From: Kangiella marina
Lineage (GTDB): Bacteria; Pseudomonadota; Gammaproteobacteria; Enterobacterales; Kangiellaceae
Direction: 5' to 3'
Length of the DNA: 64,000 nucleotides
Assembly (NCBI RefSeq): GCF_039541235.1
Contig: NZ_BAABFV010000001.1
Coordinates: 310,001 to 374,000, forward strand
Part shown: positions 1,151 to 4,763 of the stretch, in pieces
Layout: each line of letters begins with the position of its first letter
How positions within the stretch are numbered: the first letter of the stretch is position 1
The notes under the pieces: model-generated
What the model was told of the DNA's origin: nothing
Database searches by the model: none
What the model saw: only the letters and a program-made list of their open reading frames with translations
Program-made: the position numbers and the translations under genes

Positions 1151-1235
1151 TTATAAAAGTTAAAACCTAGCAGCTATAAATCCTTATCACCAATTATTCA
1201 TTGCAAAATTTCAAATTCTGTAGGATATTTGAGCC

Positions 1236-1373
1236 ATGAAGTCGATTTTAAGCACAAACCTTAACCTAAAAACTGCCCTTCCCGGTCAGCCCATCCCCTA
1301 TTCTTTCAAGAATCAGGCAGGTTTGCGCACTCCCATGTTTTGTAAGTACCTAAATAACTGTATGACCAACTAA
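1236..1373 (+). CDS. Candidate proline leader peptide (45 aa) upstream of proB1
   Basis: An ATG at 1236, preceded by TAGGA at 1221-1225, opens a 45-codon frame ending in TAA at 1371-1373. It contains the proline-rich run LPGQPIPY and a fourth proline at codon 33. All four proline codons (16, 19, 21, 33) are CCC, whereas proB1 itself uses CCC in none of its eight proline codons. The ORF ends 24 bases before a terminator that precedes proB1. Bases 1319-1327 (AGGTTTGCG), 21 bases beyond the third CCC, can pair with 1402-1410 (CGCAAGCCT), which is the 5' arm of that terminator. This is the arrangement of a ribosome-stalling attenuator responding to charged tRNA-Pro. Translation and regulation are inference. 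It could also be a chance ORF. Confidence 0.5.
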   Translation: MKSILSTNLNLKTALPGQPIPYSFKNQAGLRTPMFCKYLNNCMTN

Positions 1374-1396
1374 CTTACCAAACACAAGAATTTACT

Positions 1397-1429
1397 AAGC
1401 CCGCAAGCCTCGCTTCGCGGGCTTTTTTT
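1397..1429 (+). terminator. proB1 leader: Terminator directly upstream of proB1 (possible attenuator)
   Basis: AAGCCCGCAAGC (1397-1408) pairs with GCTTCGCGGGCTT (1412-1424) with one bulged base, followed by a T tract at 1423-1429. The proB1 start codon is at 1445 with AGGAAA in between, so any transcript from upstream must read through this terminator to reach proB1. Either the terminator closes a short upstream RNA, or it is the regulated element of an attenuator. Confidence 0.85.
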
Positions 1430-1444
1430 GCATGAGGAAAATGT

Positions 1445-2272
1445 ATGAAAGACTTTAGCTTCAACCGTTATCACAATATTGTCATTAAAGTAGGATCTGC
1501 CCTCGTGGCACCTGATGGGCACTCCTGCTCAACTCAGCACTGCCTCCCTTTGGCGAACTTTATCAAAAAGTGTCAGCGGTTAAATAAACAGGTCACCTTA
1601 ATTAGTTCTGGGGCCGTCGCAGCGGGGTTTAATACCCTAAAGCCTACCGAGGGTAGCTTGTCACTTGATGAAAAGCAGGCGCTAGCCGCTGTTGGCCAAT
1701 CAAAAGTCATCAATCACTGGCAACGTTTTTTTGATAACCATGTCGCTCAGGTCTTATTGACCGCCGCTGATATCAACAACAGCTCCCGCTCACACAATGC
1801 CAAACAAACGCTCAATAAGTTACAGCAATATGGCGTTTTGCCAATCATCAACGAAAACGACACCGTAGCCACAGCTGAACTTAAGTTTGGTGATAATGAT
1901 AACTTAGCAGCCCAAGTTGCCAACCTGATTGAAGCCGATTTGTTAATCATCTGTAGTGATGTCGATGGCCTGTATGACATTAATCCGCATGATAACCCAA
2001 GTGCACAGCTGCTCACCTATATCAATGATCTCACCGATGAAGTCATGGCGTTTGGAACAGTGAGTCATAACCCGCAGGCGACAGGCGGAATGCAAACAAA
2101 ACTACAAGCAGCGCAGTTGGCTAGCCAGTCTGATATCGACACCATTATTTGCAATGGCAAGAATGAGGCTTACCTACAGCTACTACACGATAAGGTCCCT
2201 GGCACTTGGATTGACTCTAATAAGCAGATAACTAACCAAATACAGAGCAGCATTAGAATAACTAATGCTTGA
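1445..2272 (+). CDS. proB: Glutamate 5-kinase, first copy (no PUA domain)
   Basis: Glutamate 5-kinase (EC 2.7.2.11) phosphorylates L-glutamate with ATP, the first step of proline synthesis in the cytoplasm. The 275-residue protein is a single amino-acid-kinase domain: IKVGSALV near residue 15, SSGAVAAGF near 55, the INENDTVATAELKFGDNDN segment near 137-155, SDVDGLYD near 175 and ATGGMQTKLQAA near 210. The C-terminal PUA domain of the 367-residue E. coli enzyme is missing. The Asp of LLTAAD, in the region tied to proline feedback inhibition in E. coli, is kept. The start at 1445 is supported by TGAGGAAAAT just upstream. A second, closely related kinase lies at 2659. This copy is followed by its own terminator-like hairpin, so it is probably transcribed separately from proB2-proA and may be governed by the leader at 1236-1429. 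Confidence 0.93.
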   Translation: MKDFSFNRYHNIVIKVGSALVAPDGHSCSTQHCLPLANFIKKCQRLNKQVTLISSGAVAAGFNTLKPTEGSLSLDEKQALAAVGQSKVINHWQRFFDNHVAQVLLTAADINNSSRSHNAKQTLNKLQQYGVLPIINENDTVATAELKFGDNDNLAAQVANLIEADLLIICSDVDGLYDINPHDNPSAQLLTYINDLTDEVMAFGTVSHNPQATGGMQTKLQAAQLASQSDIDTIICNGKNEAYLQLLHDKVPGTWIDSNKQITNQIQSSIRITNA

Positions 2273-2402
2273 TATAAACTACTGTAATTCATGACAATTT
2301 TTTACAATCAGTGGAAATCGCTGAGATAACACGAGCCTCAGAGATAAGATGTGTTCATTTTATGCAACATACCCCCCAGTTATATGGAGTTTTGGCCGCT
2401 AA

Positions 2403-2433
2403 GAGGCGCTCAGAGCGTCTCTGAAATTTTTTT
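2403..2433 (+). terminator. Terminator-like hairpin after proB1
   Basis: GAGGCGCT (2403-2410) and AGCGTCTC (2414-2421) form an 8-bp stem with one G-U pair around CAG, followed after five bases by seven T residues (2427-2433). It lies 130 bases beyond the proB1 stop and just upstream of the proB2 promoter. Confidence 0.6.
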
Positions 2434-2471: not shown

Positions 2472-2658
2472 GCAAACCGTGCTTAACATTAATCGAACAG
2501 ACATAGCGACACTATCCACGGCAGGCGTTTCAAGCCAGCCAAGTCGGTTATTGTCTCCGATTAGATTACAAGCCTCGCGCTTGGGTAGCGTGTTCTAGCA
2601 CACCACGTCACTTTTAACTCGTCATACATTAATCCTTTAAATATAGAAAGGTCATTTC

Positions 2659-3468
2659 ATGCTCGAACATATTGAATTTGGTAATTACAACAACATCGTT
2701 ATTAAAGTTGGCTCAGCGCTTATCGCGCCAGATGGCCACTCGTGCTCTGCGGAGTACTGCTTGCCTATTGCCCACTTTGTTAGAAAGTGCAGAAAAGCAG
2801 GTAAACAAGTAACGCTAGTATCATCAGGCGCTGTTGCGGCAGGTTTCAACTTGCTAAAGCCTGACTACGACACTCTGACTCGTAAAGAAAAGCAACCCCT
2901 TGCAGCGGTTGGTCAGTCCATGGTCGTAGCCCACTGGCAAAGATTCTTTGACGATGTTGTAGCCCAGGTATTACTGACTTCAGCAGACATCAAAAATCCT
3001 GAGCGCGCACAAAATGCACGCAACACATTCAAAACACTTGAAGAACTTGGCGCCCTGCCGATCGTAAATGAAAACGATACGGTAGCGACGGAAGAACTGA
3101 CGGTTGGTGACAACGACAACCTCGTTGCACAAGTTGCCGCACTAACTGATGCTGATCTACTGATTATCTGTAGTGACATCGACGGTGTTTACGACGACAA
3201 CCCGAAAATTAACCCTGACGCCGAGTTAGTTAACCAATTTGAAGGCATCAGCGACGAAGCGTTAGCCATGGGTAAGCAAAGCACCAGCGCACAAGGTACT
3301 GGTGGTATGCGTACCAAGCTTAAAGCTGCGAAATTCGCCTCGGAAAATGGTATTGATACGATTATCTGTAACGGTACGAACGAAAGTTACATGCGTCTAT
3401 TCAGTAACCAAAACCCAGGTACATTAATTCGCAACAATGCTGACGAAAGTAAAGAAGACGTCGCTTAG
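2659..3468 (+). CDS. proB: Glutamate 5-kinase, second copy (no PUA domain)
   Basis: A second glutamate 5-kinase (EC 2.7.2.11), 269 residues, is clearly paralogous to the copy at 1445. It has the same kinase motifs: IKVGSALI, SSGAVAAGFN, VNENDTVATEELTVGDNDN, SDIDGVYDDNP and GTGGMRTKLKAA. It too lacks a PUA domain. The stop codon TAG at 3466-3468 is embedded in the AGGAGG ribosome-binding site of proA, so this copy is translationally linked to proA and is presumably the housekeeping one. GAAAGG precedes the ATG at 2659. Both copies keep all the motifs I can check, so neither looks like a pseudogene. A difference in proline feedback sensitivity or expression is a plausible reason for keeping both. 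Confidence 0.94.
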   Translation: MLEHIEFGNYNNIVIKVGSALIAPDGHSCSAEYCLPIAHFVRKCRKAGKQVTLVSSGAVAAGFNLLKPDYDTLTRKEKQPLAAVGQSMVVAHWQRFFDDVVAQVLLTSADIKNPERAQNARNTFKTLEELGALPIVNENDTVATEELTVGDNDNLVAQVAALTDADLLIICSDIDGVYDDNPKINPDAELVNQFEGISDEALAMGKQSTSAQGTGGMRTKLKAAKFASENGIDTIICNGTNESYMRLFSNQNPGTLIRNNADESKEDVA

Positions 3469-3476
3469 GAGGAACC

Positions 3477-4763
3477 ATGAACATGAAAGAGAATTCATTC
3501 CAAGATCAAGAACAGCAAGAGTTATATGAACTAACGCTTCGTGCCAAAGAAGCAGCCAAAACTCTTGCCACATTAACCAGTAGCCAAAAGAACGATGTGC
3601 TTGCTGCGATGGCGAAACAGCTGAAGACCAACCAAGCACAAATTCTTGAAGCGAACAAAAAAGACATTGAGTACGCGAAAGAAAACGACCTGTCAGACGC
3701 TATGGTTGATCGTCTTCTACTCGACGAAGAACGTGTCGATGGCATGGTAAGCGCGCTGCATAATGTGATGAACCTAGCTGACCCAGTCGGCGAGATGGGC
3801 GAAAGCACCCTACGCCCTAACGGTATCCGTGTGGCGAAAATGCGTATCCCGCTAGGCGTCGTGCTGATGATTTATGAAGCGCGCCCTAACGTTGCGGTTG
3901 AAGCAGCAGCGCTAACGCTAAAATCAGGTAACGTGGTTATCCTGCGTGGTGGTAAAGAAGCATGGCACTCAAACAACGCCATTATCGACTGCTGGCACCA
4001 AGCGATTGAAGCGTGCGGCTTCAGTAAAGAAATGGTCTGCATCGTGCCTTCGCAAAGTCACTCAGCTGTGAATCATCTACTCCAGTTCCGTGACACGATT
4101 GATCTCGTGATCCCACGTGGCGGCGAGCGCTTGATTCAGGCGGTAACGGATAACAGTAAGATTCCAGTGATTCAGCACTTTAAAGGCGTGTGTCACTTAT
4201 ACGTCGACAAATATGCTGACTTAGACAAAGCTGAGAAGTTACTGAAAGACGGCAAGGTATCGCGTCCAGGCGTCTGTAACTCGCTAGAAAGCTTAGTGAT
4301 ACATAAAGACATTGCTGACGAATTCCTGAAGCGTGTCAACGCCCTAGGCAATGAGTTTGGCATCCAATTTAAAGCAGACAAAGACTCTGCCAGCAAATTG
4401 GACAATGCGGAAGTAGCAAGCCCTGAAGACTACCACAACGAATACTTGAGCTTAGCCATGAGTGTCTCACAAGCTGACTCTTACGAAGCTGCTATTGAAC
4501 ACATTCAAAATCACAGCTCAAGCCACACCGAAGTCATCGTCACTAAAGACATCGACCGTGGCAACGAATTCGTAAAACGCATCAACTCGTCTGTTGTGAT
4601 GGTTAACGCTTCATCACGCTTCTCAGACGGCGGCGAACTTGGCCTAGGCGCAGAGATTGGTATCTCAACCAGTAAACTACACGCCTACGGTCCTATGGGT
4701 CTTGTACAACTAACTACTGAAAAATATGTGGTGACAGGCCAAGGCCAAGCGAAACACTATTAA
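3477..4763 (+). CDS. proA: Glutamate-5-semialdehyde dehydrogenase (gamma-glutamyl phosphate reductase)
   Basis: ProA (EC 1.2.1.41) reduces gamma-glutamyl phosphate with NADPH to glutamate 5-semialdehyde, which cyclises and is reduced by ProC to proline. The 428-residue protein has the aldehyde-dehydrogenase fold. The catalytic cysteine is Cys267 in VSRPGVCNSLES, with MIYEARPNVAVEAAAL near 131-146 and LRGGKEAWHSN near 156-166. Two ATG codons (3477 and 3483) are possible starts. AGGAGG at 3467-3472 is only 4 bases from the first and 10 from the second, so the second may be used. The gene is coupled to proB2, and a strong terminator follows at 4828-4858. No proC is present in the window. Confidence 0.96.
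   Translation: MNMKENSFQDQEQQELYELTLRAKEAAKTLATLTSSQKNDVLAAMAKQLKTNQAQILEANKKDIEYAKENDLSDAMVDRLLLDEERVDGMVSALHNVMNLADPVGEMGESTLRPNGIRVAKMRIPLGVVLMIYEARPNVAVEAAALTLKSGNVVILRGGKEAWHSNNAIIDCWHQAIEACGFSKEMVCIVPSQSHSAVNHLLQFRDTIDLVIPRGGERLIQAVTDNSKIPVIQHFKGVCHLYVDKYADLDKAEKLLKDGKVSRPGVCNSLESLVIHKDIADEFLKRVNALGNEFGIQFKADKDSASKLDNAEVASPEDYHNEYLSLAMSVSQADSYEAAIEHIQNHSSSHTEVIVTKDIDRGNEFVKRINSSVVMVNASSRFSDGGELGLGAEIGISTSKLHAYGPMGLVQLTTEKYVVTGQGQAKHY

Follow-up and report, generated by a model that had tools for sequence, protein, structure and literature searches.

A predicted proline-responsive transcription attenuator upstream of the glutamate 5-kinase gene proB1 in Kangiella

The glutamate 5-kinase gene proB1 of Kangiella marina is preceded by a short open reading frame whose proline codons are all CCC, by segments able to form three mutually exclusive RNA helices and by an intrinsic terminator. 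These parts, together with their exclusive pairings in silico, are conserved in all 13 Kangiella genomes that carry proB1 or a lone proB. The element is very probably a ribosome-mediated transcription attenuator which would make expression of proB1 dependent on charged tRNA-Pro, as judged from sequence comparison and RNA folding. The isoacceptor sensed is probably tRNA-Pro(GGG), the reader of CCC. The transcription start, the translation of the reading frame, ribosome stalling and the response to proline are all predicted. A proline-responsive attenuator had been proposed in the preliminary description of this DNA; the 13/13 conservation and the decay of the element where proB1 has been lost argue for that reading. 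All coordinates (Table 1) refer to the window, which is the whole 64,000-nt stretch analysed.

Table 1. Features of the proB1-proB2-proA region (positions in the window)
Feature	Position	Strand	Remarks
End of S9 prolyl oligopeptidase gene		+	upstream of 335-nt spacer before proB1
Predicted promoter	1201-1229	+	-35 TTGCAA (1201-1206), 17-nt spacer, -10 GATATT (1224-1229)
Leader peptide ORF	1236-1373	+	45 codons, MKSILSTNLNLKTALPGQPIPYSFKNQAGLRTPMFCKYLNNCMTN; translation predicted
Segment 1, GCACAAACCT	1252-1261	+	protector 1:2; pairs with 1319-1328; sequesters segment 2
Control codons CCC	1281, 1290, 1296 (within 1281-1298)	+	encode part of LPGQPIP
Segment 2, AGGCAGGTTTGCG	1315-1327	+	5' half of antiterminator
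Fourth CCC of leader ORF	1332	+	beyond segment 2
Segment 3	1397-1415	+	terminator 5' arm and loop; 1402-1415 is the 3' half of antiterminator
Intrinsic terminator (3:4)	1397-1429	+	stem 1397-1424, AAGCCCGCAAGC-CTC-GCTT-C-GCGGGCTT; T7 1423-1429; -17.7 kcal/mol
proB1 start	ATG at 1445	+	ribosome-binding site GAGG 1434-1437
proB1, glutamate 5-kinase	1445-2272	+	TIGR01027 proB 269.7 bits, cut-off 186; presumed controlled gene
Terminator-like hairpin with T-run	2402-2430	+	3' of proB1; hairpin and T-run conserved
Spacer proB1-proB2			386 nt
Structured RNA, leader of proB2	2471-2605, with 2606-2658		~135 nt, conserved in 13 Kangiella genomes
proB2	2659-3468	+
proA	3477-4763	+

The leader reading frame and its locus

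All 20 available Kangiella genomes were searched for proB, and 14 contained it. Twelve have the tandem arrangement proB1-proB2, G018 has lost proB1, and G004 has a single proB followed by proA. Synteny around the leader and proB is conserved in the 13 genomes with proB1 or the lone proB. No proB was found in the other six genomes (G007, G010, G012, G015, G016 and G017), which suggests proline auxotrophy in these protein-degrading bacteria. The hairpin and T-run behind proB1 and a promoter-like sequence of proB2's own indicate that proB1 is probably transcribed separately from proB2-proA. With a transcript of its own for proB1, the attenuator would govern just the extra glutamate kinase in most species, and the proBA pair in G004. 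The two kinases evolve at different rates: proB1 changes much faster than proB2 (~72% versus 95% identity between close species). A PUA domain match is absent from both, and their feedback control may differ.

A 45-codon ORF with four CCC codons had been reported at this site, and every coordinate given for it proved correct. A recount also bore out the codon usage of the two kinase genes, in which CCC serves for none of the eight prolines of proB1 and for one of the nine of proB2. The background for CCC, taken from the 44 ORFs of at least 150 aa in the 64-kb window only, is 53 of 697 proline codons (7.6%). At that frequency the exclusive use of CCC in the leader (4/4) has a probability of ~3e-5, in agreement with the earlier statement that it is unlikely by chance. 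The proline content as such is not unusual (4/45 residues, P ~0.1), and what counts is the CCC bias and the conservation, not proline richness.

The leader ORF was found in 13/13 genomes with proB1 or the lone proB, with a length of 28-46 codons and three to five proline codons. CCC makes up 40 of the 52 proline codons in these frames. Within the first 75 nt of the 13 leaders, 38 CCC triplets are in frame and 13 fall into the other two frames combined. The last two CCC codons align between both Kangiella subclades. The fourth CCC of the window lies past segment 2 and is otherwise present in G001 alone, so that it probably has no regulatory role. In G018 the leader begins ATG-TAA, its proline frame is interrupted and no terminator remains, which is what one would expect of an element serving proB1. 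Seen in one genome only, with proline richness at P ~0.1, the arrangement might have no regulatory meaning, the ORF having arisen by chance ahead of a terminator that belongs to an unrelated short RNA. Given the 13/13 conservation, the decay upon loss of proB1 and the in-frame excess of CCC, we consider this exceedingly unlikely.

The peptides themselves differ. Seven species have LPGQPIP or a near variant as the core (one LPGLPMP, three LPGxPMP), five other leader peptides have SLPxPGK/Q..LALC or ILPVPGKSRLALC in common, and G004 encodes KPGYPAAPYS, with CCA three times and CCC once. The core kept in seven species would be compatible with a nascent-peptide arrest, in which LPGQPIP or LPxPGK stalls the ribosome in response to a metabolite such as free proline and thereby sets off the RNA switch. 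This is highly unlikely, as the RNA architecture is the same in the other subclade and in G004 although their peptides differ, and as the identity of CCC is kept, not just proline. In the second subclade, moreover, the dN of the peptide is about as high as its dS, indicating weak selection on the peptide.

Of the two tRNA-Pro genes in the genome, one has the anticodon UGG and the other GGG, which provides a dedicated reader for CCC. The same attenuator could in principle answer not to low proline but to slow or frameshifting decoding of CCC by tRNA-Pro lacking m1G37 (low Mg2+ or methylation), a signal that has been proposed for mgtL. Dependence on m1G37 is greatest for CCC and CCU (PMC6335274), and the control codons here are nearly all CCC. 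The codons of G004 speak against such a signal, and so does the controlled gene, whose product makes proline and for which the amino acid is the natural signal. Use of the codons of a single isoacceptor is also expected of a sensitive amino acid attenuator (PMC1183508). We regard the m1G37 signal as very unlikely and take charged tRNA-Pro as the probable one.

Upstream of the ORF, 13/13 genomes have a promoter-like hexamer pair, which stops 6-7 nt short of the leader ATG and has a spacer of 17 nt (18 in G004). This distance of the -10 hexamer places the transcription start at or adjoining the ATG, and the leader mRNA is probably leaderless, with the start predicted at the A of the ATG. An AGGA at poor distance, overlapping the -10 hexamer, is present in six of the seven members of one subclade; none precedes the leader ATG in the other subclade, in G008 or in G004.

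Alternative helices and the predicted switch

Three mutually exclusive helices, the protector 1:2, the antiterminator 2:3 and the terminator 3:4, can be formed in silico by 13/13 leaders. The terminator, conserved in all 13 genomes, had been placed correctly: in the window it follows the stop codon of the ORF by 23 nt and precedes the ATG of proB1 by 15 nt. The pairing of 1319-1327 with 1402-1410 proposed earlier (AGGTTTGCG/CGCAAGCCT, 9 bp including one G-U) was recovered and extends to 13 bp. The extended duplex, AGGCAGGTTTGCG with CGCAAGCCT-C-GCTT, has -19.0 kcal/mol and was equalled in 3 of 500 shuffles. The second proposal, that 1252-1260 could sequester the same segment, corresponds to the 1:2 helix (GCACAAACCT/AGGTTTGCGC). 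This helix appears together with the terminator in the unconstrained fold of 1236-1430 (z = -4.2).

Among the 13 genomes, the leader RNA before segment 3 forms the 1:2 helix without exception. When complete and free, 12 of the leaders fold into the terminator; the leader of G019 favours the antiterminator even when free. In 10 of the 13, the 2:3 duplex equals or betters 95% of shuffles; it is marginal in G001, and in G003 and G005 it is no better than shuffles. For 1:2, own partners pair at -20.6 kcal/mol and foreign partners at -15.8 kcal/mol (permutation p = 0.00015, a significance inflated by relatedness). The segments of G009 and G004 have different sequences and still form the three helices; the 1:2 helix of G009 (AATAAGCAC/GTGCTTATT, 9 bp) is wholly different. 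Helix re-pairing is seen between clades. Within the close group of seven genomes no pair changes on both sides, because segments 2 and 3 hardly vary, and segment 2 hardly varies because it serves two helices and the codon stretch.

The following switch is predicted from these pairings. Transcription would begin at or beside the leader ATG. With plentiful proline, the ribosome would clear the CCC codons and 1:2 would re-form behind it, holding segment 2; segment 3 would be free, and the 3:4 terminator would halt RNA polymerase ahead of proB1. A shortage of charged tRNA-Pro would make the ribosome stall at CCC 1281, 1290 or 1296, between segments 1 and 2. It would thereby keep 1:2 from closing, with segment 2 still ahead of its leading edge. 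Upon emergence of segment 3 the 2:3 antiterminator would form, and polymerase would read into proB1. The control codons are just three, spread over 18 nt. Given their location between segments 1 and 2, a ribosome stalled on them would sit in the loop of 1:2 and interfere with this helix from there, leaving segment 1 uncovered.

That segment 2 would stay free during a stall at CCC had been part of the original proposal. We modelled the stall by a mask reaching 14 nt past the first base of the A-site codon; under this mask, segments 2 and 3 are predicted to pair in 13/13 genomes before the 3' arm of the terminator exists. At equilibrium, the terminator of the window beats 2:3 even with a stalled ribosome, so that the switch would have to be kinetic, relying on the order in which the RNA segments are made. 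An early stall is enough for 2:3 to prevail even at equilibrium in G004, G006, G002, G014, G011, G013 and G019. Conservation among relatives had been named beforehand as one of the points on which the proposal could fail: the ORF, its CCC codons, the terminator and both pairings are kept in 13/13 genomes, including the subclade with a different peptide.

Distribution, and a second leader before proB2

A sequence model spanning promoter to segment 2 found one confident copy in each of 12 Kangiella genomes (E <= 2.5e-18), always upstream of proB1, and the decayed copy of G018 (E 8e-6); G004 is too divergent for the model. Neither the other members of the family nor 296 genomes from the order yielded a convincing match. 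Three of the weak matches outside the genus were inspected, and no proB was nearby. Upstream of 80 proB loci among the matches listed, many GC-rich genomes have proline-containing ORFs, in which no pattern is conserved.

Some individual loci deserve mention. Four loci of genus g3 from the same family (L015, L016, L018 and L019) have short ORFs ~100-320 nt upstream of proB. These end in P-L-V-G-stop or R-P-L-K-G-stop (for example MFICNKKQFISIPSFNPLVG or STLPAPLVG before the stop), with CCC CTT GTG GGT or similar as the last codons; an evident terminator follows only that of L018. These ORFs may represent an independent proline leader whose output is a different one. Locus L029 of genome G046 has, upstream of proB, a GTG-start ORF (VTQLRNYHHSTNIPPPQSSSLKN) with three consecutive prolines and no terminator seen. 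Directly upstream of proB in Arsukibacterium (L089), an ATG-led stretch beginning MNINTYFLRLPALMPVPAVVPGKPFWYS contains five prolines and runs towards proB; it could be a leader, or else extend the protein at its N terminus.

The proB2-proA pair has a structured leader of its own, confined to Kangiella with proB2. It consists of an outer stem GUGCU/AGCAC, inner helices which differ between the subclades yet still pair, and a hairpin GGCxGGC-N7-GCCxGCC. Its RNAalifold energy corresponds to z = -6.7 against column shuffles. A CCUUU near 2634 is able to pair with the Shine-Dalgarno sequence AAAGG of proB2. An ORF inside the leader is frameshifted in G009, so that the RNA rather than a peptide seems to be conserved. 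No Rfam match was obtained for it. A riboswitch-like control of proB2-proA is possible.

Relation to known systems

Ribosome-mediated attenuators are known for the trp, his, leu, ilv, thr and phe operons in proteobacteria. To our knowledge, proline does not usually figure among the amino acids with a biosynthesis under leader-peptide attenuation. Our search, which covered the open-licence literature, brought up no proline biosynthetic gene with a leader-peptide attenuator. The Kangiella element is best filed as a ribosome-mediated attenuator with a new specificity, its translation and proline response being predicted. We consider it rather probable that it is the first attenuator dedicated to proline biosynthesis, with a leaderless ORF tuned to the CCC-reading tRNA-Pro, that it mostly controls only the faster-evolving proB copy, and that the RNA leader of proB2-proA is perhaps a separate sensor. 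Such a compact, conserved case in a culturable marine genus would add proline to the list of leader-peptide attenuation. It would put to the test the prediction that attenuators use codons read by whichever isoacceptor reacts most sensitively to starvation. Given its predicted leaderless start, it would also be a clean example of attenuation without a Shine-Dalgarno sequence in gammaproteobacteria.

With the trp, his, leu, ilv, thr and phe attenuators the element shares a leader ORF with codons for the product amino acid, the 1:2/2:3/3:4 arrangement and a terminator before a biosynthetic gene. It differs by its proline specificity, the location of CCC in the 1:2 loop and the predicted leaderless ORF; the control codons of his or trp leaders are more numerous and more clustered.

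T-boxes control the proline genes proBA in Bacillus, where proline biosynthesis is likewise tied to tRNA-Pro charging via a terminator, but by direct tRNA binding and without a leader peptide. A T-box or a metabolite riboswitch might also work the terminator of the proB1 leader without translation. To this we assign almost no probability: an Rfam search of the leader gave no known family at gathering level, the best sub-threshold matches include Trp_leader and Leu_leader and no T-box, and the start codon, the open frame and the in-frame CCC codons are all kept.

The preliminary description knew of no established proline case, which stands for proline biosynthetic genes, where none was found, but not for proline-codon leaders as such, which are established for Mg2+ transporter genes of Salmonella (PMC3641672). 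There, the proline-codon leader ORFs of mgtCBR (mgtP) and mgtA (mgtL) respond to a shortage of charged tRNA-Pro with more transcription downstream (PMC3641672). The Kangiella leader resembles mgtP and mgtL in its proline-codon ORF. They govern a Mg2+ transporter and virulence genes, whereas the controlled gene in Kangiella is proB; mgtP has a Shine-Dalgarno-like sequence, whereas the Kangiella leader is predicted to be leaderless; and no sequence homology is apparent. For an RNA starting with the ATG of the leader ORF, the trpL attenuator of Sinorhizobium meliloti provides a parallel, although it concerns tryptophan and an alphaproteobacterium (PMC7298713).
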